Origin: a virus
Virus record (IMG/VR): IMGVR_UViG_3300007276_000388
Coordinates: 1-20,977 of that record
Reading direction: 5' to 3' (one strand)
DNA: 20,977 bases
How positions within the stretch are numbered: position 1 is the first letter of the stretch; every line of letters starts with the position of its first letter. The position numbers and the translations under genes are program-made. Below the pieces are notes generated by a model. The model saw nothing but the letters and a program-made list of their open reading frames with translations, was not told where the DNA came from and ran no database searches. Positions 2,759-20,977 of the stretch are shown in pieces.

Positions 2759-3060
2759 GCGCATTTGCAAAGGGCAAGAGGGCTTTTGGGTTCTGTGACA
2801 GAACGGGCTTCCGGTATCCGCTCAAGGACTTGGTCTACGAGATTGATAACGGGGTGCCGAACGGTCTGCGCGTCGGCAAGGATGTGGTTGATCCAGATCA
2901 TCCACAGAACCATCTTGACCGCGCAAGGACTGACGATCCTCAGTCGCTTGATGATCCGCGGCCAGACACAACAATCGAAAGTCTGTTTGGTTGGACGCCT
3001 GTCGGCAACTCAGCGAACTATCTCCAAGCGCTTACAGGTAGAGTTGGGGTCATCGTATGA
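2755..3060 (+). CDS. Conserved small phage protein, virion-associated
   Basis: This 101-residue protein has the core GFCDRTGFRYPLKDLVYEID, followed by GLRVGKDVVDPDHPQNHLDR. That layout (C-D-R-T/S-G-F, then Y-P-x-x-x-L, then V-x-x-x-D-x-x-x-x-H-P-Q) is familiar to me from small proteins encoded beside adaptor genes in marine podo- and myoviruses. A biochemical role is not known to me. Only one Cys is present, so it is not a classical zinc ribbon. The C-terminal part ESLFGWTPVGNSANYL may be a peptide that inserts into a neighbour. Both ends overlap neighbours by ATGA (2755-2758 and 3057-3060), which suggests tight co-translation with the adaptor downstream. Confidence 0.65.
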   Translation: MSAFAKGKRAFGFCDRTGFRYPLKDLVYEIDNGVPNGLRVGKDVVDPDHPQNHLDRARTDDPQSLDDPRPDTTIESLFGWTPVGNSANYLQALTGRVGVIV

Positions 3061-3683
3061 ACTACGCAGAACTGACGCAGCAACTTCAGGACAACCTTGA
3101 GACGGACGAGACGACATTTGTTGCGAACATCCCGAACTTTGTGCTGCGCGCTGAAGAGAATATTTTCCGCAGCGTCTATGTCCCGGAACTGCGCAGGAAT
3201 GCGTCAGGCACATTCACTGGCTCTGCCCGCTACTTGAGCAAGCCGAGCGATTACCTTTCCACCATTTCCGTATCCGTCAATGATGGGACTGATGAAGAGA
3301 TGATGCAGATGAAGGATATCAGCTTCATTTACGAGGCTTATCCGCAGAACGTAGAGGGCGTCCCAAAATACTATGCCCACTTCAATGATGACTGCTTCAT
3401 TGTCGGGCCTACCCCTGACAGCGGGTACGCGGCCACGATCCATTATTACTACGACCCCCCAAGCATTGTCACGGCCAGCACGTCTTGGCTTGGCGACAAC
3501 GCTGAGGGCGCTTTGCTTTATGCCTCAATGGTTGAAGGGTATCTCTTCTTGAAGGGTGACCCTGACCTGATGCAGGAATACCGCGCAAGCTATAAGCAAG
3601 CCTTGGACAACCTGACGGCCCTTGGCATGGTGCGCATACGCCGCGATGAGTACCGTGAAGGCAACATCAGGGCGGAGGTATAA
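3057..3683 (+). CDS. Head-tail adaptor, SU10-adaptor-like
   Basis: This 208-residue protein matches the phage head-tail adaptor family typified by phage SU10. The order of elements is NYAELTQQLQDNLETDETTF, then ANIPNFVLRAEENIFRSVYV at residues 23-42, and RYLSKPSDYLSTISVSV. Next come EAYPQNVEGVPKYYAHFNDD, FIVGPTPDSGYAATIHYYYD (113-132) and SWLGDNAEGALLYASMVEGY (143-162). It ends in a long helix around DLMQEYRASYKQALDNLTAL. The adaptor forms a ring below the portal and links it to the tail. All core motifs are present and the length is normal. It starts inside the stop of the upstream gene and ends five bases before the next start. This is one of the most secure assignments here. Confidence 0.85.
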   Translation: MNYAELTQQLQDNLETDETTFVANIPNFVLRAEENIFRSVYVPELRRNASGTFTGSARYLSKPSDYLSTISVSVNDGTDEEMMQMKDISFIYEAYPQNVEGVPKYYAHFNDDCFIVGPTPDSGYAATIHYYYDPPSIVTASTSWLGDNAEGALLYASMVEGYLFLKGDPDLMQEYRASYKQALDNLTALGMVRIRRDEYREGNIRAEV

Positions 3684-4425: not shown

Positions 4426-4800
4426 ATGGCATTTATCGCAGACATCGTATTCGACAGCGGCTTGTCGTACATCACAACCAACGCTGACCGCGTTGATATC
4501 TGCAGCGCAGAGCCGACAACCTACACGCTGGCGACCGTGACCAACACGCTTGGCAACGAGACCACGATTACCACGACTGGCCCTGTAGATGCAGACACAG
4601 GCAGTGGCCGCCGCGCAGTCATCGACGCCATCACGTCAGGTACTGTCACAGGCACAGGCACGGCAGACTCTTGGGGCGTCAGCTACGTCACAGGCACAGC
4701 ACTTCTCGCTGCTGGTCAGCTTACTGGCTCACAGGCTGTCACAAACGGCAACACCTTCACTCTTGATGCAATCTCCATCTACATCAGAGACGCCACCTAA
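4426..4800 (+). CDS. Small beta-rich phage structural protein
   Basis: This 124-residue protein begins MAFIADIVFDSGLSYITTNA. It has DRVDICSAEPTTYTLATVT, TVTGTGTADSWGVSYVTGTA and a final AVTNGNTFTLDAISIYIRDA. I recall this arrangement as a common partner of the gene just upstream in marine phages; function is unknown but it is probably a virion surface protein. ATG 4426 is chosen because a perfect AGGAGG (4411-4416) lies nine bases upstream. An in-frame upstream ATG at 4306 would sit deep in the previous gene. There are no charged clusters, membrane segments or catalytic motifs. The gene ends 24 bases before the membrane pair. Confidence 0.7.
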   Translation: MAFIADIVFDSGLSYITTNADRVDICSAEPTTYTLATVTNTLGNETTITTTGPVDADTGSGRRAVIDAITSGTVTGTGTADSWGVSYVTGTALLAAGQLTGSQAVTNGNTFTLDAISIYIRDAT

Positions 4801-5480: not shown

Positions 5481-5810
5481 ATGCCAGACTGGCGCATATA
5501 CTACGACGATAAAAGCACCTTTGACAGCGACCAAGGTTCGCCTGAAGATGCTCCGTCGCAGGGTTTCATTTGTGCTGTTGGCTGGGATGAGACTGGCAAG
5601 CGGTACATCATGCATGGCTGGGACCACTATAACTGGGACGATGATGTCGATCAGTGGTGGGGAATGTCCTATACCGGACTGTTCGACAGGCTTCTGAGAA
5701 ACAAAGTTAAAGCCTACAAGATGGGCCGCACGGTCTGTCGTCGGGATTGGGAGGAACTTATGATCCTCGCCAACAACGATCCTGACTTCCCTATCGGGGG
5801 TAAGTCATGA
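5481..5810 (+). CDS. Conserved Trp-rich phage protein, unknown function
   Basis: This 109-residue acidic protein is rich in Trp, Tyr and Asp. It has the order DWRIYYDDKSTFDSDQGSPE, APSQGFICAVGWDETGKRYI, HGWDHYNWDDDVDQWWGMSY, TGLFDRLLRNKVKAYKMGRT and finally WEELMILANNDPDFPIGG. The parts 'W-x-I-Y-Y-x-D-x-S-T-F', 'P-E-D-A-P', 'Y-N-W-D-D…WWG' and 'DPDFP' form a signature I have seen repeatedly in marine phage genomes without an assigned role. It is complete, with GAGG about eight bases ahead of ATG and an ATGA overlap with the next gene. Position between membrane proteins and receptor-contact proteins does not settle whether it is in the virion. Confidence 0.65.
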   Translation: MPDWRIYYDDKSTFDSDQGSPEDAPSQGFICAVGWDETGKRYIMHGWDHYNWDDDVDQWWGMSYTGLFDRLLRNKVKAYKMGRTVCRRDWEELMILANNDPDFPIGGKS

Positions 5811-7204
5811 CTCACCAAGTAGCCGTATGGAACCAACAGACCTTTGCTTGGTACACAGATGCTGGCGGCGAAGGCACGAACCAGATCGGGACAACGGGTT
5901 CAAACCCAACGACCCTAGATACAAACACCCAGTACAGACTGCGTTACCTGATCCAAGAAACGGCTGGCTCCACTGTTGCTGAGACACCAGTTTTTGGCCT
6001 TGAGTTCCGCGTTGATGCTGCGGGCGGCACGTCCTTCGGGGCATGGACCGCCATTACCAGCGGCAATGCTGCCTTCACTGCTGTCTCCACGGCGAGCGTT
6101 ACGGACGGGGCCACCACGACGCAACAGATCGGCGCTGGCACATTCAACGATGGTGAGTTCAGCTACGTTGACGCTGGATCGACGGCACCAACAAACACCC
6201 TGACCGCGACAGGTGGCTCTGACGAGTACGAAGTCGAATGGGTCTTGGAGTTTGCTGCTGTCGGTGGGCAGAACTTTGAGTTCAGGGTTATATGGGATGA
6301 TGGCACTACGCCGCCTGCCACGGCGCTGGATACATACACTGCGACCACGCAGGTCAGTCCATCTGCTCCAGTAAACACCCTTCTTGCCGACAACGTATCT
6401 TCGGCTTCTGCGGTCTCATCCCCAGCGGCTGTCATAACGCGCATACTCGACGCAACAAATGTTCAGTCAGCGTCCACCGTCAGCACCACGGCAATACTGC
6501 AGACCCATATCCTCGACGCCACAAATGTCCAAAGCGCTTCCACCGTAAGCGATGCAGCGATTATTCAGACGCATATCATTGGCGCGGCAACGAGCGCTCA
6601 GTCTGCCAGTAATGTTTCCAATCCAACCCTTGTGGCAAACTCTGCTCTTGGCTCCGCTACTTCGGTCCAGAGTGCGTCCAATGTATCCTCTCCAGTAACT
6701 ACGCAGACATATGTCTTTACCGCTACAAATGTGCAGTCGGCATCTGCTGTCAGCACAACGGCTTTGTCACAAGACATTGAACGCTTGCCACCAGACGGGG
6801 ACGATGTTGTTGGAAGCTGGACGACCGACCTTGGCGGAAGCACAAACTTATTCCAGTCCATTGATGAAGACCCGTTCAATGACAGCGACTACGTGCAAAG
6901 CGAACTTAGCCCGCAGTCGAGCGTTGCCCGGTTTACCCTGACCAACCCAAGTGGCGCAGTTGACATCGCGTCAGACCACAAAGTTCAATACCGATACTAC
7001 AAGGAACTGGACGCTGCTGGTGTGCAGCAACTTGATCTTGTTGTGCGGCTCAAGCAGGGGGCATCAACAGTTGTCGCAACGTGGACCCACAGCAATATCA
7101 CAGGGACCGTGGTTCAGGCGGTCCAGACGCTCTCCGCTGGGCAGGTCAGTGCCATAACAAACTACGCAGACCTTCGCCTAGAATTTGACGCAAACGCGCC
7201 GTAG
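5807..7204 (+). CDS. Modular tail-region protein with six 22-residue repeats
   Basis: This 465-residue protein has three parts. Residues 1-190 form a beta-rich domain (TNTQYRLRYLIQETAGSTVA; VTDGATTTQQIGAGTFNDGE; EYEVEWVLEFAAVGGQNFEF) of a kind I recall in marine phage tail-region proteins. Residues 191-322 carry about six copies of the 22-residue V-Q-S-A-S-x-V-S repeat. Residues 323-465 resemble a carbohydrate-binding-like jelly roll (WTTDLGGSTNLFQSIDEDPF; LVVRLKQGASTVVATWTHSN; ITNYADLRLEFDA). Two sandwich domains bridged by a repeat linker fit a surface adhesin or fibre. It is the smaller partner of the giant repeat protein immediately downstream (9-base gap). The start forms ATGA with the previous stop. 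Role in host attachment is inference. Confidence 0.65.
   Translation: MTHQVAVWNQQTFAWYTDAGGEGTNQIGTTGSNPTTLDTNTQYRLRYLIQETAGSTVAETPVFGLEFRVDAAGGTSFGAWTAITSGNAAFTAVSTASVTDGATTTQQIGAGTFNDGEFSYVDAGSTAPTNTLTATGGSDEYEVEWVLEFAAVGGQNFEFRVIWDDGTTPPATALDTYTATTQVSPSAPVNTLLADNVSSASAVSSPAAVITRILDATNVQSASTVSTTAILQTHILDATNVQSASTVSDAAIIQTHIIGAATSAQSASNVSNPTLVANSALGSATSVQSASNVSSPVTTQTYVFTATNVQSASAVSTTALSQDIERLPPDGDDVVGSWTTDLGGSTNLFQSIDEDPFNDSDYVQSELSPQSSVARFTLTNPSGAVDIASDHKVQYRYYKELDAAGVQQLDLVVRLKQGASTVVATWTHSNITGTVVQAVQTLSAGQVSAITNYADLRLEFDANAP
6377..6772 (+). repeat. Six 22-residue VQSAS repeats in the smaller repeat protein
   Basis: Residues 191-322 contain six units with cores NVSSASAVS, NVQSASTVS, NVQSASTVS, SAQSASNVS, SVQSASNVS and NVQSASAVS, spaced 66 bases. 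The unit matches the array in the next gene, so both genes share a repeat family. The DNA of individual units has diverged at silent sites. Confidence 0.85.
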
Positions 7205-7213
7205 GAGGCATAA

Positions 7214-9934
7214 ATGGCCACCATCGGTTGGGGAAGATTAGGTTGGAGTGCAGGCCCTTGGAACAGCGGGCTGGAGACGCTCACTGTAACGGATGTTCAA
7301 AGCGCCTCTTCGGTCAGCACAAATGATCTTGTTGTTGTCAGGAACCTTGCCCCCACTGGTTCAGCGTCAGCTTCTTCCGTGTCTTCGCCAAGCATTGCGC
7401 AGACGCATAATCTCAGCGCCACCTCGGTGCAGAGTGCATCTAATGTCAGCGCGCCAGACCTCTCAGAAGAGAACACACTCACTGTAACGGATGTTCAAAG
7501 CGCCTCTTCGGTCAGCACAAATGATCTTGTTGTTGTCAGGAACCTGAACGCCACAAACGTCCAGTCAGCGTCTAGCGTTTCCACGAATGACCTTGGGCGC
7601 ATCATTAATGCAAACGCCACAAATGTTCAGAGCGCTTCGAATGTATCTTCCCCAGCCATAGAAATTGCCACGCGGGCTATTGTCACTTGGGCTGAGTTTA
7701 CTGCCAGAGTTGAAAGCGGAAACGCTTTACTCGCGGATGACGTTCAGTCTGCAAGCAACGTATCCACCAATGACCTTACGCAGACCCATGTCCTTGATGC
7801 GACGGATGTACAGTCAGCCTCTACCGTATCTTCGCCCGGAATTGCGGAGGAGAATGCGCTAACTGTTGTCAGCGTCCAGTCAGCTTCTGCTGTCAGCACC
7901 AACGACATTGCGCAGGTCCACGTTCTGGACGCCACAAATGTTCAGAGCGCCAGCGCTGTTTCCACAAACGATCTCACAGTTGAAGGGGCGCTAACCGCGG
8001 TCAACGTGCAGTCGGCATCGACCGTAAGCACGAACGATCTTTCAGAAGAGAATGCGCTGACAGTCACTGATGTTCAGTCGGCATCCTCCGTTTCAACAAA
8101 TGATCTCGCTCGCATCATCAATGCCAACGCGACGAATGTTCAGTCGGCTTCTGTTGTTTCGGCCCCAGCGCTTGAGGTTTTCTCAAACCTTGACGCGACA
8201 AACGTCCAGTCAGCCTCCGCTGTCAGTACCAACGATCTGGCACAAACCCACATCCTTGATGCAGCAAATGTGCAATCGGCATCAAACGTCAGCACGAACA
8301 GTCTGGCCGAGGAAAACGCATTAACAGCGAATGACGTGCAGTCAGCTTCGGCTGTATCGACAAATGACCTTGCTGAAAGCAACGTCCTGAACGCGACAGA
8401 CGTCCAGTCTGCCAGCGCGGTTTCTTCGTCTGCCATCGCACAAACGCACATACTGAACGCAACCAACGTACAGTCAGCCAGCGCAGTATCTTCACCAGCG
8501 CAAGCGACTGCGACGAGAGCCATCGTTACATGGGCTGAGTTCCAAGTTACCATTGCTGGAAGCGGCGTTGATGTTCTGAGTGCTGAAAACATTGAAACTG
8601 CTTCTGCCGTCTCTACGACAGCGATTGCACAAACCCATATCCTCGACGCTACAAACGTCGAAAGCGCAAGCAGCGTCACCACAAACGATCTGTCTGAAGA
8701 GAACACGCTCAACGCGACCAGCGTACAGTCCGCATCAAGCGTATCGACCAACGATCTCGTTCGAGTTGTAAATGCAGATGCGACAAATGTTCAGTCTGCC
8801 TCAGATGTAAGCGCACCAGTATTCGTTCAGCAGGGCGGCCTTTCTCCCGTCAATGTTGAGAGCGCATCTTTCGTATCGACAAATGATTTTGCTCAGACGC
8901 ACATTCTTGACGCGGTCAATGTTCAGTCGGCATCCACAATAAGTTCCCCGGAACTTTCTGAAGAAAACATTCTGGACGCTACGAACGTCCAATCGGCATC
9001 TTCGGTAAGCACCAATGAACTGACAGTTGTTGTCGCCCTTGATGCGGTCAACGTCCAGTCAGCTTCGGCAGTAACGACAAATAGCCTCTCTGAAGAGAAT
9101 GGCCTCACGGCAGCAGATGTTCAGTCTGCGTCCAGCGTCACCACCAATGACTTTGCTCAGACGCACATCCTGAACGCTACTGACGTACAGAGCGCAAGCA
9201 GCGTTACCACCAATACTTTGGTTCACATCGTCGGCCTGACATCCGTCAACGTATCGTCTGGCTCTGCGGTATCTGCCCCGGTTTTTGAGGAGACGTTCAC
9301 AGAACTCACCCCGACAAACGTGGAGAGCGCGTCAGAGACGTCTGTGAGCGCCATTGGGCAGGTTCACGCCCTGACGCCAGTAAACGTCGAGAGCGCCTCT
9401 GAGACGCCCTCTGTGGCCCTTAGCGAGGAGAACGCCCTAACCGTTACGGATGTGCAATCAGCTTCCGCTGTCAGCAGTCCGTCTGCAGTTCAGGTCGTCA
9501 GCTTCTCCGCGACCAACATCGAAAGCGCCAGCACCACAAAAACCGTTTCAATCGCTCAGGTCTACATCACGACGCCTGTCGGGGTGGAGAGTTCCTCTGA
9601 CGTATCGACCGCTGGGGTGGAGCGGATTTTCAATCTTACTGCGGCAAACGTAGAAAGCGCCTCAGAGGTTTCGACACCGTTCTTCGAGATACTGATCATC
9701 AAGCCGACCGGGGAGGAACTTACCGCTTCCGTTGGCTTCGTGAACGTGTGGGGTATCGTTCAGTGCGGACCTGACGCCGGATGGTCACAGGACGCGCCAT
9801 CGCAGAACCCCGGCTTCTCTGAGATAAGCGGCAGCCAAGCACCGGGCTGGAGCCAAGACGAGCCAAGCCAGTCTCCGGGATGGGGGCAGATTGACTGCAG
9901 TAACGATCCAGATTGGGATGAGGACGCAGCTTAA
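7214..9934 (+). CDS. Giant 22-residue-repeat fibre-like protein
   Basis: This 906-residue protein has a short Trp/Gly N-terminus (MATIGWGRLGWSAGPWNSG), about 35 tandem 22-residue units (residues 23-829), a short bridge, and four 11-residue Trp/Pro units (856-899). The unit core is (T/A)NVQSASxVS(T/S)(N/P), followed by Leu/Ile and a variable ending closed by Leu. Regular Val/Leu spacing with Ser/Ala/Thr between suggests stacked beta strands, i.e. a beta-solenoid or extended rod; this is inference. Two units (6 and 18) carry an inserted ATRAIVTWAEF module. Cysteine is absent until the C-terminal region (two Cys). A good ribosome site (AGGAGG) precedes ATG. Between the modular repeat gene and the tail fibre, it is most likely a long virion appendage or adhesin. 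Unlikely alternatives are a tape measure (too Ser/Thr-rich, not helical) or an ice-binding-like protein. Confidence 0.7.
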   Translation: MATIGWGRLGWSAGPWNSGLETLTVTDVQSASSVSTNDLVVVRNLAPTGSASASSVSSPSIAQTHNLSATSVQSASNVSAPDLSEENTLTVTDVQSASSVSTNDLVVVRNLNATNVQSASSVSTNDLGRIINANATNVQSASNVSSPAIEIATRAIVTWAEFTARVESGNALLADDVQSASNVSTNDLTQTHVLDATDVQSASTVSSPGIAEENALTVVSVQSASAVSTNDIAQVHVLDATNVQSASAVSTNDLTVEGALTAVNVQSASTVSTNDLSEENALTVTDVQSASSVSTNDLARIINANATNVQSASVVSAPALEVFSNLDATNVQSASAVSTNDLAQTHILDAANVQSASNVSTNSLAEENALTANDVQSASAVSTNDLAESNVLNATDVQSASAVSSSAIAQTHILNATNVQSASAVSSPAQATATRAIVTWAEFQVTIAGSGVDVLSAENIETASAVSTTAIAQTHILDATNVESASSVTTNDLSEENTLNATSVQSASSVSTNDLVRVVNADATNVQSASDVSAPVFVQQGGLSPVNVESASFVSTNDFAQTHILDAVNVQSASTISSPELSEENILDATNVQSASSVSTNELTVVVALDAVNVQSASAVTTNSLSEENGLTAADVQSASSVTTNDFAQTHILNATDVQSASSVTTNTLVHIVGLTSVNVSSGSAVSAPVFEETFTELTPTNVESASETSVSAIGQVHALTPVNVESASETPSVALSEENALTVTDVQSASAVSSPSAVQVVSFSATNIESASTTKTVSIAQVYITTPVGVESSSDVSTAGVERIFNLTAANVESASEVSTPFFEILIIKPTGEELTASVGFVNVWGIVQCGPDAGWSQDAPSQNPGFSEISGSQAPGWSQDEPSQSPGWGQIDCSNDPDWDEDAA
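7280..7347 (+). repeat. Exact 68-base duplication, first copy
   Basis: Bases 7280-7347 are identical to 7478-7545, an offset of 198 bases, i.e. exactly three repeat units. The match begins and ends at single-base differences. Against the otherwise silent-diverged array this marks a recent copying event. Confidence 0.9.
7478..7545 (+). repeat. Exact 68-base duplication, second copy
   Basis: This is the second identical copy of 7280-7347, encoding LTVTDVQSASSVSTNDL and a VVVRNL-type ending. It keeps the reading frame. Confidence 0.9.
7667..7730 (+). repeat. ATRAIVTWAEF insert module, copy 1
   Basis: An in-frame insert of about 18 residues follows unit 6 and begins ATRAIVTWAEFTARVE. It carries the only Trp type seen within the array. 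A second copy occurs 843 bases (281 codons) downstream. Confidence 0.7.
8510..8580 (+). repeat. ATRAIVTWAEF insert module, copy 2
   Basis: This second insert, after unit 18, begins ATRAIVTWAEFQVTIAG. The first eleven residues equal copy 1 while codons differ (CGG/AGA, GCT/GCC, ATT/ATC, GTC/GTT, ACT/ACA), so the duplication is old and the protein sequence constrained. Confidence 0.7.
9779..9910 (+). repeat. Four 11-residue Trp/Pro repeats at protein end
   Basis: Residues 856-899 read as GWSQDAPSQNP, GFSEISGSQAP, GWSQDEPSQSP and GWGQIDCSNDP. Each has an aromatic residue at position 2, Ser/Asn around position 8-9 and Pro at the end. This may be a capping or attachment segment of the fibre-like protein. 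Confidence 0.8.
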
Positions 9935-10038: not shown

Positions 10039-11808
10039 ATGGCTTCAACATATTCACTCAACAATGGCATCGAACTCATTGGTGATGGCGAGCAGTCAGG
10101 CACTTGGGGCGATACCACAAATACCAACTGGAACCTTATTGATGAGTCCCTTGAGGGGCAACTCTCCAAGACTCTTGCATCAGCAGGAAGTTCCGGCTCT
10201 CCGAACACCTTGGTCATTAGCGATGGCGCAACGTCTGAAGGTCGTCACAGATATATCGACTTCGTTGACGGGGCTGATCTCGGCGCAACTGCATATGTTC
10301 GACTTGACCCAAACGATGCGGAGAAAATCTTCTACGTCAGAAACTCACTGACTAACGGTCGCAGCCTGATTTTGTTCCAAGGAACTTATAATGCCGCGAA
10401 CGACTACGTTTTGGCGAACGGGGCCACTGCTGTGGTCAAGTTTGATGGAGGCGGCGCTGGGGCAACGTGTACAGGCATTGGCCGCTTCCCAACAGATGCT
10501 GAAGCGGACGAACTTACGGTATATGCTGCAACGCCATTGACGCAGACTGAACTCGCGGAACTGCAAAACATTGGAGCGACAACGATCTCCGCGACTCAGT
10601 GGGGCTACCTTGGTGGCTTGACTGGAGCGCCGCCAGCAAGCGATGCTTTGGTCCCGGCTGATATCGGTGTAACCGTTCAAGCTTACATTGATGACCTTAG
10701 TAACATCGGAGCGACAACAATCAGTTCTGCCCAGTGGGGTTATCTTGGTGGTGCCGGGGCATATGCAGGAACGCTTCTTGGTACAACCACAGAGGCGAAC
10801 TTCAAGCAGACAGTCAACCTTGAGATTGGCACTGACGTTCAGGCGTACAGCGCAGACTTGGCGACCTACGTTGCCAACCCTCTTGCCGCCACTGAACTTG
10901 CGGAACTTCAAAACATCGGAGCGACCACGATCAGTGCTACCCAGTGGGGCTACCTCGGTGGGCTGGCGTCAGCACCATACGAGAGTGGGGACAACGTATC
11001 GTTTGGTACAATCTCCGCTACAGGTGTAGTGGACATTGCTGGCTCGCTTGCTCACACGGGCGACATTGACAACAGCCTCACCTTCACAACCGATGCACAA
11101 GTGTACCGTACTGGCGGCACCAATCGCTTCGACATTAACGACAGCGGAGTAAGGTTAGGTAACACTGGCGCGAGGGTCACAGCCATCCTCGACCAAGACA
11201 CTATGTCTTCCAACAGCGCCACAGCCCTAGCCACGCAGCAGTCTATTAAGGCTTACGCTGATGCATCCGCCGGTGCTATGGTCTTCATCGAAAGCCAAGA
11301 TGCGTCAAACACCGCAACCTTGGACTTCACAGGCTTTGATGCCACGAAATACGATGCGTATAAGTTTGTAGGTCAGGGGCTTGTCCCTATCCTTGAAACC
11401 ATCGGAAATGGGCTTCGTTCCAGAACAAGCACGAACGGCGGCTCTACTTATGACAGCACGACAGGTGATTACACATACGCAGGGAGATGGATGCCTTCCA
11501 CAGGAACACGGTTCGACATACAAGGCGAAAATGTCAGCGCGATCAACATTCTTGGCCAGAATGATGTTGGTTCAGATCCGGGCGAAGATGGTGTTGATTT
11601 TGTTATGCACGTCACAAACGCAGGAGTGGCAAAACAAACTCGCGCCGTTTGGGAGGCAAATTACACAAATTCTAGTGGGTACATGTGTTTTGTTGCTGCA
11701 GGTGGAGCGCGAAAAAGCTCTGCGGACGTTGATGCGATACAATTTTATTTCAGTTTAGACAACATCGCATCAGGCACCATCACAATGTACGGACTGAGAA
11801 ACAGCTAA
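10039..11808 (+). CDS. Tail fibre protein
   Basis: This 589-residue protein starts MASTYSLNNGIELIGDGEQS, then GTWGDTTNTNWNLIDESLEG. That N-terminal signature is typical of tail fibres in marine podoviruses and prophages and probably docks on the tail. A beta-rich shaft follows, with three copies of NIGATTISxxQWGYLGG around residues 171-310. A late segment (MSSNSATALATQQSIKAYAD) resembles the helical stalk before many fibre tips. The C-terminal domain (FIESQDASNTATLDFTGFDA … SGTITMYGLRNS) ends in the IT-x-YGL strand usual for receptor-binding jelly rolls. The fibre recognises the host surface. ATG 10039 has a GGGA element about nine bases ahead. Its stop overlaps the next start (TAATG). Confidence 0.85.
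   Translation: MASTYSLNNGIELIGDGEQSGTWGDTTNTNWNLIDESLEGQLSKTLASAGSSGSPNTLVISDGATSEGRHRYIDFVDGADLGATAYVRLDPNDAEKIFYVRNSLTNGRSLILFQGTYNAANDYVLANGATAVVKFDGGGAGATCTGIGRFPTDAEADELTVYAATPLTQTELAELQNIGATTISATQWGYLGGLTGAPPASDALVPADIGVTVQAYIDDLSNIGATTISSAQWGYLGGAGAYAGTLLGTTTEANFKQTVNLEIGTDVQAYSADLATYVANPLAATELAELQNIGATTISATQWGYLGGLASAPYESGDNVSFGTISATGVVDIAGSLAHTGDIDNSLTFTTDAQVYRTGGTNRFDINDSGVRLGNTGARVTAILDQDTMSSNSATALATQQSIKAYADASAGAMVFIESQDASNTATLDFTGFDATKYDAYKFVGQGLVPILETIGNGLRSRTSTNGGSTYDSTTGDYTYAGRWMPSTGTRFDIQGENVSAINILGQNDVGSDPGEDGVDFVMHVTNAGVAKQTRAVWEANYTNSSGYMCFVAAGGARKSSADVDAIQFYFSLDNIASGTITMYGLRNS
10549..10968 (+). repeat. Three WGYLGG repeats in the tail fibre shaft
   Basis: The core NIGATTIS-(A/S)-x-QWGYLGG is encoded near 10569-10617, 10702-10752 and 10912-10962. 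Copies 1 and 3 also share the lead-in TELAELQ. Spacing is uneven (133 and 210 bases). Repeats of this 'Q-W-G-Y-L-G-G' kind occur in shafts of phage fibres and probably mark repeating strands in the trimer. Confidence 0.8.
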
Positions 11809-12167
11809 TGTTTGAAATTCTGTTAGCCTTCAGTGATCACCAACTACAGGGAGACTGGACGGAAGTTCATCCCGGCGTTCGCTATGAAAGCACAGAATAT
11901 CCGATCATGGCTGCGTTCTTTCTGAACAGCGAAGGCAATCCAAGCCTAGCTGTTGGTTTCCTCGGTGACTATGCGCTGAGCGATACCATATCGGCTTTTG
12001 GTGAGATTGGCGGCGCAACGGGCTACAGCGGCGGCCCAGTCATACCGTTTGGCCGCGTTGGCTTTGAGTATAGCGATATGGGGCGGCTGTTTGTTGCTCC
12101 AGCAATGAATACGGATGGCGATGTCGGCACGGTTGTTGGTGTTGAACTTATCTTGGCGAGGTTTTGA
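11808..12167 (+). CDS. Small beta-rich protein encoded after tail fibre
   Basis: This 119-residue protein has alternating-hydrophobic strands and Gly-rich turns: SEGNPSLAVGFLGDYALSDT, ISAFGEIGGATGYSGGPVIP, FGRVGFEYSDMGRLFVAPAM, VGTVVGVELILARF. Strand pairs and a C-terminal Phe resemble a fragment of an outer-membrane beta barrel. I recall similar small 'NSEGxPS…TGYSGGPVIP' proteins beside marine phage fibre genes, with no proven function. There is no signal peptide, so it could be a fibre-tip accessory, a fibre chaperone or a receptor mimic; I cannot choose. It starts in the stop of the fibre gene (TAATG at 11806-11810) and ends directly before the tail hub gene, so it is co-expressed with both. 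Confidence 0.6.
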   Translation: MFEILLAFSDHQLQGDWTEVHPGVRYESTEYPIMAAFFLNSEGNPSLAVGFLGDYALSDTISAFGEIGGATGYSGGPVIPFGRVGFEYSDMGRLFVAPAMNTDGDVGTVVGVELILARF

Positions 12168-14033
12168 ATGTCTAAACTTGTCCCCATCAAGTTGACGCCG
12201 GGAATTAACAGGGAGCATACACGCTTTGCTGGTGAGGGCGGTTGGTATGATGGCGATAAGATCAGGTTCCGTCATGGCTTTCCAGAAAGCATAGGCGGCT
12301 GGTCGAGGCTCCTGAATGATACATTCCTCGGTACGTGTCGCTCCCTATACACATGGACCGTTCTCGCAGGGGACTTGCTTCTCGGCGTCGGCACTACGTG
12401 GAAATTTTACGCCCTGTACGGCGGCGCTTTTTACGACATCACCCCAATACGCACAACGACTGCGGCTGGAGATGTCACGTTTTCTGCGTCAAACGGGTCT
12501 AACATGCTGACGGTAACCGACAGCAATCACGGTGCCTTTCCAAACGACTTTGTTACTTTCTCCGGCGCGAGTAGTCTTGGTGGCTTGGTTACGGCTCCAG
12601 TCATGAACGCTGAGCATCAAATCGCAACGGTTACAGATGCCAATACCTACACCATTGAACTCAGCGTTACGGCCAACGGGTCAGACACTGGGAATGGTGG
12701 CGCGTCTGTCATCGGTGTTTATCAGGTCAATGTTGGCCTCGACACAGGACTGACAGGTACAGGCTGGAGCGCTGGTGCTTGGGGTGACGGCGGATGGGGG
12801 GAAGCTGCCCCATCAACTGCTGGTTCTCAAATATTGCGTATCTGGTCTCAGGATAACTTTGGCGAAGACCTGATCATTAACCCAGTGAACGGCGGCATCT
12901 ACTACTGGGATGTCAGCGGAGGCATCGGGACAGTTCGGGCGGTGCCTTTAAGCAGTCTTTCCGGCGCAAGCGATGCTCCATTGTTTGCAACGCAGACTAT
13001 GGTGTCTGACCAAGACCGACATGTAATTTGCCTTGGGTGTGACGCTGAAGATGATCCGGGTAATTCTGACCCTCTCCTCATCAGGTGGTCAGACCAAGAG
13101 AACGCCTCGGACTGGACAACGCGCACAACCAACACTGCTGGCAGCCTTAGACTGTCTCGTGGTGCTGAGATCGTTCGAGCCGTGCAGACCAAGCGAGAGA
13201 TTATAATCTTCACTGACCAGTCCATGCACTCAATGCAGTTCCTTGGGCCTCCATATACTTTTGGTATTCAGGAGATTTCATCATCGACTGAACTTATGTC
13301 TCGCATCTCCGTGACTACGGTGGACGATGGCTTGTTCTGGATGGCGAACGGAAAGTTCATGGTCTATGACGGCACAGTCCGTGAGATCGAGTGCGACGTG
13401 AAGAGTTACGTTTTCGATAACTTCAACATCGATGAGAGGCAGAAGGTCGTTGCCGGACACAACCTGAAATTCTCAGAAGTATGGTGGTGGTATCCAAGCA
13501 GCGGTGCCAGCGAGAATGACAGTTACGTTGTGTTCAATTACCTTGAAAGTATCTGGTATTTCGGGAGCATGGTGCGGACTGCATGGCATCCATCAGGATT
13601 GACAGACTATGCAATCGCCGCCGGGACTGACGGCTACTTGTACGAGCATGAAAAAGGTCTCAACGATGGGTCAAGTAACCCGGCTGTTTCCTTGCCATCG
13701 TATATTGAAAGCGCCACTTTCGATATTGCGGATGGAGATCAGTTCTTTTTTGCAAACCGCATCATTCCTGACGTCACGTTTGTAAATTCCACAGGCGATC
13801 CAATGGCAACGATGACGCTCAAGGCTCGGCGCTTTCCCGGCTCATCGTTTGACAACAGCGATGTGGCTGTAACATCTCAGACCGCCACTGTTCCAATAGA
13901 GCAATTTACGGAGCAACAGCACATCAGGCTGCGCGGCAGGTCTATGACTATGCGTGTGGATGCAGACGAACTGAATGTGCAGTGGCGTCTTGGCATTCCG
14001 CGTATCGGCATGAGAACGGACGGGAGGCGCTAA
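12168..14033 (+). CDS. Tail hub/nozzle protein, P22 gp10 / T7 gp12-like
   Basis: This 621-residue protein belongs to a large conserved phage family I recognise from marine podoviruses, usually matched to the tail accessory/nozzle class (P22 gp10, T7 gp12). Its signatures run in order: LTPGINREHTRFAGEGGWYD, GDKIRFRHGFPESIGGWSRL, a DVTFSASNGSNMLTVTDSNH insertion domain, NFGEDLIINPVNGGIYYWDV, MVSDQDRHVICLGC, LLIRWSDQENASDWT and HSMQFLGPPYTFGIQEIS. It ends with EVWWWYPSSGASENDSYVVF, ESIWYFGSM and a C-terminal strand domain ending RPRIG-like (GIPRIGMRTDGRR). The length is typical and no motif is missing. It probably forms the hexameric tube under the adaptor through which DNA leaves. The next gene starts inside its stop (TAATG). 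Confidence 0.85.
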   Translation: MSKLVPIKLTPGINREHTRFAGEGGWYDGDKIRFRHGFPESIGGWSRLLNDTFLGTCRSLYTWTVLAGDLLLGVGTTWKFYALYGGAFYDITPIRTTTAAGDVTFSASNGSNMLTVTDSNHGAFPNDFVTFSGASSLGGLVTAPVMNAEHQIATVTDANTYTIELSVTANGSDTGNGGASVIGVYQVNVGLDTGLTGTGWSAGAWGDGGWGEAAPSTAGSQILRIWSQDNFGEDLIINPVNGGIYYWDVSGGIGTVRAVPLSSLSGASDAPLFATQTMVSDQDRHVICLGCDAEDDPGNSDPLLIRWSDQENASDWTTRTTNTAGSLRLSRGAEIVRAVQTKREIIIFTDQSMHSMQFLGPPYTFGIQEISSSTELMSRISVTTVDDGLFWMANGKFMVYDGTVREIECDVKSYVFDNFNIDERQKVVAGHNLKFSEVWWWYPSSGASENDSYVVFNYLESIWYFGSMVRTAWHPSGLTDYAIAAGTDGYLYEHEKGLNDGSSNPAVSLPSYIESATFDIADGDQFFFANRIIPDVTFVNSTGDPMATMTLKARRFPGSSFDNSDVAVTSQTATVPIEQFTEQQHIRLRGRSMTMRVDADELNVQWRLGIPRIGMRTDGRR

Positions 14034-17609: not shown

Positions 17610-19670
17610 ATGGAAAACATCGCAGCAATCTCTGACGACCTAAAGAACTTCAGCATGCCGCAACTGATGAAGGCAATGCAGACAGCTTCAGCCCCGCAGT
17701 ATCTTGTCTTGAGTGAGATCACAGACCGGAAGAAGCGGCAGGCGATGGCCGGGGGTAACCCTCAGGATCAGGCGTCCGTGAAGGATCAGGTCATGCGGTC
17801 TGTCAACGCGGCAGGGATTGGCGCTCTGCCAGCACGTAACGCGATGAACGCACTGGCACCGAATGCGATGGCGATGAAATCTCAAAATGGTTCTATGGAA
17901 CCTACTGCGATGCAGTCGATCACCAACCGACCAACACCTATGGGCCAGCAGATGGGCCAGCAGCCGGGGCAGCAGATGGGCTACGCCAAGGGTGGCGAAG
18001 TAATGGGGTATGCCGAGAGCGGCGGCATTGGCCGGACGACAATGACTGCAGGCGAGAACATCAAAAACGATTACGAGGCGCTTCTGGCCTACCTTCGTTC
18101 CATTGGTCAGGCACCAGAGTATGGACCAGATGTTTCTGGGTATCAGCCACCTGCTGGGTTTGACCCACGCATGCAGGCGCAATCTGGAAGCGGAATAAAT
18201 TTCTCCACCAGTACACCACCTGATGCTGGGCTTCTTCCGGGGAGACTGCAACGCGCAGGTATGGGGCAGCTACCAAATGCAAGTGTTGGCCCTGAAGCGA
18301 TGTCACAGATGATCGACGGTCCAATGTCTGGCGTACCAACTGGCATTGGAGACGCAAGTCTTGAGTTGCCTGACAGGCTTATGGCTGGGCTGCGTGGCGG
18401 CGGTGGTTCAGACTGGACGCCTCGGCCAGACACTCCACCTCTAGGCTCTCCAACTGGCGGCATGCCAGTGATTGATCTGAGTGACGGCAGTCAACCTCCT
18501 CAGCCCCCTATGGGTGGTGATATTCTGTACCCCGGCGCAGGATTTGCTGGCGCTACGGATGACATGAGAGCGCCGCAATTGAACGCGATGGAAGAGCCGG
18601 GGGCTAATCAATCTGGAACTGGCAATAAAGCTGCCAGCTTCGGTGGGCCAATGCCGTGGTATATGGACCCTCAACAAACAGACCTTCGCGGATACCCGGT
18701 TAATTCCAGCATCCCTGATGATATGTACTACTCCCAACGAGCAGAGCAGCCTGATCCTGAGATGATCACGCCGTTCGACCCATTTGCCGTGGACGGTTGG
18801 GCAAAGGAGCCTGCCTCAGTTGGCCAAGAGCCAAAGCCTTCCGGTGGCGGTCTTTCATTCGGCCTTCCGCCAGCAGACACGGGCGCTTTGCCGCGTATGC
18901 CGGGAGACCCTGCGCTTTCATTTGGTGTCATAGACGAGCCAACCACAGACCCGGAGTCCTCCCCTCCGGGTGGAACCCAGCGTACATCCCCATCGCAAGG
19001 TGGCGCGGGTGGCGCTGGGTCTTCCCCTTCTGGCGGGATATTCGCAGAGTACGAAGGCATGCTTCGCCAGCGCATGGACGACATTACCAAAGGCGAGGAG
19101 CAGCAGAAGTGGCTTACCATCGCCAAGCTTGGCCTTGGTCTTATGGAGTCGAAAGCACCAACGCTCGGTATGGCTATGGGCGAGGCTGGCATGGCGGCGC
19201 TTGAAGACTATGAGGCGATGAAGGCCAACAACTCAGGCGAGATGTGGAAGCTTCAGGAGACCATGATGGGCCTCAAGCTGAAGCAGGCTGATGCTGTTGC
19301 CAAGGCGCGGGCGGCGGCTTCCGGCGGTGGCAGTGGCAGTGGCAGTGGCATCGGAGAAACTTCTTTGGAACTCAGCGCGGGTGAGGAGCGGTATAGAGAT
19401 GCATATCTTGAGCCGTACAACACAAAGATTAAAAATATTCAGGATGAAATTGCAATTCTTCTGGGCAATGAGTTGGGCGTGGTAGACGAGGATCGTGTCG
19501 CACAGCTTCGTCAAGAGATGGCAGCATCGCTTCAGGCCCGTGACGCCGCAAACTATGAGTTTACTATCAACAGGCGGCTTGGAACTGGTTACGATGCCAC
19601 TCAAGCGCCGACGCAGGCAGCACCGCCAATTGGAATTACGGGTCTCTCAATGGGTGTTCCAACCCAGTAG
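17610..19670 (+). CDS. Large presumed internal virion protein, T7 gp15 position
   Basis: This protein of about 686 residues has a helical start (MENIAAISDDLKNFSMPQLM), ASAPQYLVLSEITDRKKRQA, and VNAAGIGALPARNAMNALAP. Next come a Met/Gln repeat (MGQQMGQQPGQQMG) and the motif GYAKGGEVMGYAESGG. A long Pro/Gly-rich disordered middle follows, then the helical segment WLTIAKLGLGLMESKAPTLG with MAMGEAGMAALEDYEAMKAN. It finishes with a Ser/Gly linker (GSGSGSG) and a coiled helical C-terminus. I recall the '…LGLGLMESKxPxxxxxxGEAGxxALxxY' segment from large virion proteins of marine phages. By order it matches T7 gp15, an inner core protein that helps DNA cross the periplasm; this is inference. ATG 17610 is preferred; GTG 17604, overlapping the previous stop, adds two residues and is equally possible. 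Confidence 0.7.
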   Translation: MENIAAISDDLKNFSMPQLMKAMQTASAPQYLVLSEITDRKKRQAMAGGNPQDQASVKDQVMRSVNAAGIGALPARNAMNALAPNAMAMKSQNGSMEPTAMQSITNRPTPMGQQMGQQPGQQMGYAKGGEVMGYAESGGIGRTTMTAGENIKNDYEALLAYLRSIGQAPEYGPDVSGYQPPAGFDPRMQAQSGSGINFSTSTPPDAGLLPGRLQRAGMGQLPNASVGPEAMSQMIDGPMSGVPTGIGDASLELPDRLMAGLRGGGGSDWTPRPDTPPLGSPTGGMPVIDLSDGSQPPQPPMGGDILYPGAGFAGATDDMRAPQLNAMEEPGANQSGTGNKAASFGGPMPWYMDPQQTDLRGYPVNSSIPDDMYYSQRAEQPDPEMITPFDPFAVDGWAKEPASVGQEPKPSGGGLSFGLPPADTGALPRMPGDPALSFGVIDEPTTDPESSPPGGTQRTSPSQGGAGGAGSSPSGGIFAEYEGMLRQRMDDITKGEEQQKWLTIAKLGLGLMESKAPTLGMAMGEAGMAALEDYEAMKANNSGEMWKLQETMMGLKLKQADAVAKARAAASGGGSGSGSGIGETSLELSAGEERYRDAYLEPYNTKIKNIQDEIAILLGNELGVVDEDRVAQLRQEMAASLQARDAANYEFTINRRLGTGYDATQAPTQAAPPIGITGLSMGVPTQ

Positions 19671-19691: not shown

Positions 19692-20977
19692 ATGGGATAT
19701 CTTGTTGTAACAGACCCATCCACTGGACTGCCGACGACAGTCAAGATCAGCGGAGAGCAACCAACAGACACTGAGGCCCAGCGTATTAACGACTGGTATT
19801 CTTCACGCACACCTGCGCCTGCGCCTGCACCCGTTGCTGCGCCTGAAGATTTCAACCCACCCGGCACAGCCCTTGGTCGGTCGCTTCAGACTGGCATCGG
19901 CAGTGTTCAGGAAATGTTTGGCGAGACACTTGAGGGCATTGGGTTTGATGAAGCTGGCGGCAGCCTCATGGAAGCTGGGCAGGAGAGGCAAGAAAAGTAC
20001 GGTCAGTACGCGACAAGGCTTGCAGACGTAGAAGACATCGGATCGTTCGGCCTGTTCGCTGGGGAAACACTTGCATCACAAGTTCCGTACTATGCTCCGG
20101 TAATGGCTGGCGCATACGCTGGCGGTAAGCTTGGAGCCGCGGGCGGCGCAGCCTTTGGTCCCGCTGGGGCTGGACTTGGTGCGTTTCTGGGCGGTGTCAC
20201 AGGCGGCGCGATAGGCAGCTATCCGCTTTTGTACGGTGAGAACCGTGCTGAGCAAAGACGTGTGGACATAGAGAGCGGCAGGCCAGTAGAGATTGATGAC
20301 CGCGTTGCTGCTTTGAACGCTATTGGTAAGTCAGCCTTGGAAGGTCTTGGCGGTCGGTTGATTGGTTGGGGCATTAAGCCCCTTGCTAAAGGCACCGGAC
20401 TTTTAACCAGAGTTGTTGGCCGGGGTACTGCTGGTGCTTTGACTGAGGTGCCAACAGAACTTGGCCAAGAAGTCCTCACCATCATTCAGTCTGGCGAAGA
20501 CCCACTCGACCCTAAATTTAAAGAACGCTACTTAGAAATTGCAGCAGCCTCAGCGATCATGGGCGGTGCAATTGGTGGAGTTGGCGGAGCATTCAACACC
20601 GAACAAAATCCGGGTGGGACAGTAGGGACACCGCAAGAACAGCTTGCCGCTGACCTTATCCAAGAGGGACAGGAGACCGCAGACCGCGGGCAGTACGCCA
20701 AGGAAGTTGCGGCTGATCAGCCAACGGAAACACTGGATGACCTGAGGGCGCGTCAAGCGTCCGCTGTGAAGCAGGAGCAGTTGGACAGAGGCGTTGGAAC
20801 TGTAAGGACAGATGTTGCACCAGATGTTGCACCAGAGGTTGGGCCAGATGTCGCCACGCAAAGGGCAGCGATAGAGCAGGCAGACACTAACCTTCGGCAA
20901 AGTCAGCTTAGCGCCGTACAGGAACAACGCGCGGCCAAGGCGGCAGATGAACTCGCCAGAACAAAACGTGTAGAGGA
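19692..20977 (+). CDS. Large ejection/core protein, partial (T7 gp16 position)
   Basis: This gene is open from ATG 19692 to the window end (428 codons, no stop). It begins MGYLVVTDPSTGLPTTVKIS, then a Pro/Ala linker (TPAPAPAPVAAPEDF). A helical part (VQEMFGETLEGIGFDEAGGS) precedes a strong glycine-zipper segment at residues 139-175 (AGAYAGGKLGAAGGAAF, then AGLGAFLGGVTGGAIG). A second membrane-like segment is IMGGAIGGVGGA near 289-300. TEVPTELGQEVLTIIQSGED at 251-270 is a motif I associate with the giant internal 'polyvalent-type' virion proteins of marine phages. By order it corresponds to T7 gp16, which spans the inner membrane and may carry a muralytic domain; no such domain is visible in this part. 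AAGGAG lies about 11 bases upstream. The visible C-terminal part is charged and helical. Confidence 0.7.
   Translation, partial: MGYLVVTDPSTGLPTTVKISGEQPTDTEAQRINDWYSSRTPAPAPAPVAAPEDFNPPGTALGRSLQTGIGSVQEMFGETLEGIGFDEAGGSLMEAGQERQEKYGQYATRLADVEDIGSFGLFAGETLASQVPYYAPVMAGAYAGGKLGAAGGAAFGPAGAGLGAFLGGVTGGAIGSYPLLYGENRAEQRRVDIESGRPVEIDDRVAALNAIGKSALEGLGGRLIGWGIKPLAKGTGLLTRVVGRGTAGALTEVPTELGQEVLTIIQSGEDPLDPKFKERYLEIAAASAIMGGAIGGVGGAFNTEQNPGGTVGTPQEQLAADLIQEGQETADRGQYAKEVAADQPTETLDDLRARQASAVKQEQLDRGVGTVRTDVAPDVAPEVGPDVATQRAAIEQADTNLRQSQLSAVQEQRAAKAADELARTKRVE
20811..20855 (+). repeat. Short tandem DVAP repeat in last gene
   Basis: GATGTTGCACCA occurs twice in tandem (20811-20822 and 20823-20834), followed by degenerate copies, encoding DVAPDVAPEVGPDVA. 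It is in frame and probably a flexible linker; slippage could change its length. Confidence 0.75.

Follow-up and report, generated by a model that had tools for sequence, protein, structure and literature searches.

A 22-residue repeat protein encoded among virion-structure genes of a podovirus-like record is a candidate fibre shaft

RESULTS AND DISCUSSION

Gene organization of the window

The DNA analyzed, referred to here as the window, is a virus record of 20,977 bases taken over its whole length. Searches with Pfam and PHROG profiles identified genes for two SU10-type adaptors and for tail-fibre-type, stabilization-type and ejection-type proteins; the Pfam family SU10_adaptor matched two separate genes, at 1242-1910 and 3057-3683 (62 and 88.5 bits, respectively). 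Among cultured phages, the nearest versions of two window genes were found in HTVC027P, HTVC023P, the Roseobacter phages CRP-901/902 and DSL-LC04. The window represents a portion of the virion-structure block of a P22/SU10-like podovirus whose relatives include the pelagiphages HTVC027P and HTVC023P. The features discussed below are as follows.

3057..3683, + strand: SU10-type adaptor
4426..4800, + strand: small MAFIADIVFDSGL protein; most relatives have a similar gene 5' of the repeat gene (several match phrog_240)
5807..7204, + strand: ORF A, 465 aa, with two other domains flanking six repeat units (units at 6374-6775)
7214..9934, + strand: ORF B, repeat protein of 906 aa (from the ORF list and unit scan), with a GGAGG ribosome-binding site at 7204-7208
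7214..7273, + strand: N-terminal module of ORF B, MATIGWGRLGWSAGPWNSGL, common to the ortholog L012
7274..7669, + strand: repeat block 1 of ORF B, 6 units
7277..7347 (copy 1) and 7475-7545 (copy 2), + strand: near-identical 71-bp direct repeat in block 1 (blastn off-diagonal matches)
7670..7720, + strand: insert 1 of ORF B, TRAIVTWAEFTARVESG, 17 aa
7721..8512, + strand: repeat block 2 of ORF B, 12 units, equal in count to L012
8513..8569, + strand: insert 2 of ORF B, TRAIVTWAEFQVTIAGSGV, 19 aa
8570..9694, + strand: repeat block 3 of ORF B, 17 units with one additional residue after the 11th, equal in count to L012
9695..9931, + strand: C-terminal segment of ORF B, GEELTASVGFVNVWG followed by a repeated Trp/Gln/Pro-rich tail
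10039..11808, + strand: tail-fibre-type protein, the next gene downstream of ORF B
12168..14033, + strand: virion structural/stabilization-type protein (phrog_3287)

The ribosome-binding site of ORF B overlaps the stop codon of ORF A. Read-through from ORF A into ORF B was considered, the two sharing a frame, but was rejected as two stops and the ribosome-binding site intervene both in the window and in L012. The shorter array of ORF A had been missed in the original prediction; its six units follow an N-terminal domain and precede a C-terminal beta-type domain (GSWTTDLGGSTNLFQSIDE...). Downstream, the protein encoded at 10039-11808 has a repeated segment of its own, NIGATTISATQWGYLGG, in three copies by eye, and gp12 of phage OANV2, in the equivalent place, carries TAAELNILDGVT repeats. 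The 119-aa protein encoded at 11808-12167 resembles, by eye, a fragment of an outer-membrane beta-barrel.

The repeat array of ORF B

A position-specific scan detected 35 units of 22 residues in ORF B, arranged in blocks of 6, 12 and 17. This confirms the array of about 35 units originally predicted, the true span being 7274-9694, slightly off the 7280-9700 first given. Spacing between units was exactly 22 residues in 31 of 34 cases, the other three being 39, 41 and 23, and the self-identity of the protein at lag 22 was 0.41 (maximum of 0.14 in 1000 shuffles). The repeats had been described as near-perfect, which is true of the core alone, as almost never broken in length and as making up almost the entire protein. 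The array accounts for approximately 85% of ORF B (35 x 22 = 770 of 906 residues). The two long breaks in spacing are non-random, since inserts 1 and 2, which had not been recognized as related, are alike and of an RxIVTxAEF type (TRAIVTWAEF...). The core is near-invariant and follows the rule proposed: in a count that took in 42 candidate units from ORFs A and B, V8 occurred in 38, S10 in 40, A11 in 40 and S12 in 42, and further columns were V14 (37) and L/I/F19 (36). Across their full length, on the other hand, the units of ORF B average only 47% identity in protein, and their DNA copies 49%. A near-identical contig (L004, 99.97%) has the same array. ORF B combines the V-[QE]-S-A-S core, the hydrophobic residue 19 and the tandem arrangement that define the VQSAS/VESASE phage repeat (OANV2 gp11 type).

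The DNA identity at lag 66 was 0.52, 0.55 and 0.30 at the first, second and third codon positions, respectively, the last being near random. The core serines are encoded by TCN and AGY codons alike, with 21 and 13, respectively, at position 10 and 28 and 7 at position 12. Taken together, the near-random third positions and the mixed serine codons indicate that the array is old, has not expanded recently and is maintained through its protein sequence. The 71-bp copy in block 1 is the sole recent-looking event, the remaining array having diverged in DNA. The 22-residue repeat is therefore an old one that has been kept by selection on the protein, and the selected period put forward originally is upheld by the exact spacings and the lag-22 self-identity.

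Distribution of the repeat and related proteins

The repeat was found in OANV2 gp11 and in about 15 contigs of uncultivated phages, which have between 3 and 31 units each, and 160 of 200 spacings across the relatives were exactly 22. Wherever the neighbours were readable the repeat adjoined structural genes, those named including a P22-like portal, a P22-type coat protein and an SU10-type capsid protein; in most relatives the repeat gene was preceded by the same small 'INDEVFD' gene. Among 385 sampled alphaproteobacterial genomes the repeat was present in one, namely that used as the centre of the sampling. A bacterial source of the repeat was rejected on this count, and the three MAG contigs recovered could themselves be of phage origin. 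A search with the 22-residue profile, proposed in the original prediction, thus gave many phage matches and nearly none in bacterial genomes, in agreement with a phage origin. The similar VQSAS proteins mentioned there do exist and, as far as the records show, are not limited to phages of alphaproteobacteria.

Searches of Pfam, PHROG and PDB sequences with ORF B gave nothing convincing, and a weak Pfam match to Rhodanese (E 0.0065, under the family cutoff) was discarded. The profile of phrog_8501, labelled 'minor tail protein', matched the repeats of three relatives (L006, L023 and L042) and did not match ORF B itself at E 0.01.

OANV2 is a podovirus of Octadecabacter (PMC9239159). Its gp11 (Octadecabacter Antarctic DB virus 2, MW805364) resembles ORF B in having the 22-residue repeat, in nine units, and Trp-rich C-terminal repeats, and its gene immediately precedes a tail fibre gene. 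It differs in its fewer units and different N-terminal domain, and no RxIVTxAEF inserts were seen in it. The main text of PMC9239159 presents no proteomics of gp11. The protein (L003 7065-8591) consists of a beta-type domain, the nine repeats and a Trp-rich tail, and is annotated 'ribonuclease E', a name that looks wrong. Its Apolipoprotein match, which at 28.6 bits fell under the cutoff of 90, was taken as compositional.

The protein XAI95683 of Microcystis phage Mae-JY22 (L044 744-1421) shares the 22-residue period and aligns in register with ORF B (hhalign score of 26.4; best of 30 shuffles 18.4). On the other hand it is short (225 aa) and has HxH where the window has SxS. HxH pairs also lie 22 residues apart in the fibre of Alteromonas phage R22Y (L053, HxH protein frame from 5949). 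A link to iron binding through R22Y gp12 was rejected because, with HxH pairs 22 apart too, its repeat is a different one, HxHxIxDIxGL.

DSL-LC04 WJZ48131 and HTVC027P gp68 occupy the same gene slot as ORF B and share a WG-rich start. The C-terminus of WJZ48131 is homologous to that of ORF B (score 75; best of 200 shuffles 48), whereas that of gp68 scored no higher than its shuffles. The repeats of WJZ48131 have the same 22-residue period in another sequence, GVQATGxVGxVTV. Visual inspection suggested that the units of VQSAS and GVQAT type are homologous, but profile comparison did not support this, the hhalign probability being 0.1, under the best shuffled control.

Predicted fold of the repeat units

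The full-length alignment was too gapped for folding, and the AF2 models, from in-register unit alignments of 12 and 8 units, therefore cover the repeat units alone. The best pLDDT was 67.8 for 12 units and 70.9 for 8 units, and the five models of each job differed (pLDDT 48-71). Both models showed two strands per 22 residues over most of their length, together with several long fused strands. The top VIA-align match for both was CsgA (8c50), with Z of 23.4 over 261/264 residues and 15.8 over 176/176, the superpositions having an rmsd of 8.8 and 8.5 for the 12- and 8-unit models, respectively, from models of pLDDT 68-71. Other solenoids followed and then, lower, leucine-rich repeats; since solenoids and leucine-rich repeats score well together, Z reflects in part their common arrangement. 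Foldseek searches of the unit models against PDB and BFVD gave nothing significant.

CsgA is a beta-solenoid with two strands per repeat of 23 +/- 5 residues and N-$-Psi-$-Psi-$-Q motifs (PMC10192328). The ORF B models, of moderate confidence, resemble it in having two strands per repeat of similar length. By sequence, however, ORF B is not a curlin: no Pfam curlin match was obtained up to E 0.1, and the N-$-Psi-$-Psi-$-Q motifs are missing, the conserved columns being V8, S10, A11, S12 and V14. A two-strand-per-turn beta-solenoid in which every unit makes one turn has the best support and is likely, as modelled. The solenoid turn per unit proposed originally is backed by two AF2 monomer runs with two strands per 22 residues and CsgA ranked first, at moderate confidence and for the repeat units only.

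An acidic coat that is disordered and of low complexity, lacking any fixed fold, would suit the S/T/N/A-rich composition of ORF B, its net charge of -82 and the limited AF2 confidence. It is nevertheless very improbable, given the exact spacings across relatives, the alternation of hydrophobic positions within the unit (L3, A5, V8, V14 and L19) and the strands in both models.

Phage fibre shafts known so far are mostly intertwined trimers. The shaft of T4 gp34 is one of these, a triple beta-helix without a clear sequence motif (PMC5537660). ORF B might have the same fibre role with such a fold, three chains intertwining and a lone chain being unfolded, and a monomer pLDDT of 68-71 is what would be expected if partner chains were absent. 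An HxH unit variant exists as well, and HxH pairs in trimeric fibres bind iron (PMC11705849). We regard this as possible but less probable than a single-chain solenoid: the strict 22-residue rule of ORF B differs from the lack of a clear motif in T4 gp34, and both AF2 models and the CsgA match fit a single chain with two strands per turn. The choice bears on the 17 nm rod originally proposed, which agrees with 35 turns at about 0.48 nm and is valid for a single-chain solenoid only; intertwined chains would give a length > 17 nm.

Unit number in the ortholog L012

The ortholog of ORF B in the contig L012 has 817 residues, the same ends, both inserts and blocks of 2, 12 and 17 units. The first block therefore differs (2 units, against 6 in the window) while the counts of 12 and 17 are equal. 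Between L012 and the window, identity is 55% over those C-terminal parts of ORF A that were compared and 41% over the C-termini of ORF B. Units paired by position had 8.5 of 22 residues identical, compared with 7.8 for random pairing, the unit-by-unit signal having p 0.0016 over all columns and p 0.16 over the variable columns alone. On these comparisons, the counts of 12 and 17 have outlived most of the unit-specific sequence, and this equality of unit number in a diverged ortholog is the unexpected part of the present results. Scans by the N-terminus, ORF A and the inserts returned L012 and the duplicate contig as the only other carriers of the ORF B architecture.

Selected length and absent recombination would each explain the equal counts, and one ortholog cannot decide between them. 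The counts may well be unselected, with nearly even odds, if units diverged in DNA stop recombining and the count freezes. The mean DNA identity of 49% between units favours such freezing, as does the location of the sole near-identical 71-bp copy in the one block that differs (6 and 2 units). Against it, the unit identities between the window and L012 are almost shuffled (8.5 and 7.8), a pattern that plain divergence or exchange between units can produce and that does not settle the point. A more speculative proposal, which we consider improbable, is that the slot of ORF B holds a modular virion rod whose unit count sets its length: phages would swap VQSAS, GVQAT and HxH repeats and keep the 22-residue turn, and selection would fix 12 turns between the inserts and 17 from insert 2 to the tip, with the inserts presenting something at fixed heights. 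With equal 12 and 17 counts in two diverged orthologs, ORF B becomes a candidate molecular ruler whose divisions can be counted genetically.

ORF B as a candidate fibre shaft

The reading that we favour, with a probability of about 0.5, is that ORF B is the rigid, acidic beta-solenoid shaft of a podovirus virion fibre. It is suggested by the regular period and the codon-position identities, the two strands per 22 residues in both AF2 models and their CsgA match, the structural neighbours in the window and likewise in OANV2, the phrog_8501 label on the repeats of relatives, the equal counts in L012 and the near-absence of the repeat from bacterial genomes. We infer from these points that ORF B is present in the particle, and its fibre probably sits on the tail.

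Several relatives, on the other hand, speak against a tail fibre. In L007, L008, L009, L011, L019 and L026 the repeat gene is flanked by portal or small head-type genes on one side and by scaffold or capsid genes on the other (identities partly assigned), and in several relatives the small gene upstream has a match to phrog_240, 'head protein'. It is unlikely all the same that ORF B is a head fibre or decorates the capsid in place of being a tail part, as in the window, L012 and OANV2 the gene is flanked by tail adaptors and by tail fibre/stabilization genes, and the PHROG label for the repeat is minor tail protein.

In the favoured shaft, each unit would contribute two beta-strands, one around xHxLxA and one around SASxVSxx, and the chain would turn near the N/D-V step. 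Stacked as solenoid turns, the units would give a stiff rod that is strongly acidic and, for a single chain with one turn per unit, about 17 nm long; the RxIVTxAEF inserts may bulge from this rod, or serve as joints in it, at fixed heights. As to polarity, ORF B would be fixed to the particle by its GWGR...W start, and its Trp/Gln-rich end would form the tip or cap. In ORF A the two other domains would be separated by a shorter rod, and the same appendage as ORF B may include the fibre-type protein encoded at 10039.

Phage fibres with repeated shafts are already known, and this repeat recurs in many phages. Neither a Pfam family nor, by sequence, a solved structure matched the repeat of ORF B, and we found no paper on it; the family so far consists of unnamed genes and one PHROG label. 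These results suggest that the OANV2 'ribonuclease E' gene and the genes of hypothetical proteins with the same repeat encode virion fibre parts, which bears on their annotation. A regular acidic 22-residue solenoid, if the fold is correct, would be useful as a scaffold protein.

Elsewhere in the window, 12-bp tandem repeats occur within coding frames at 17940-17981 and 20809-20851.
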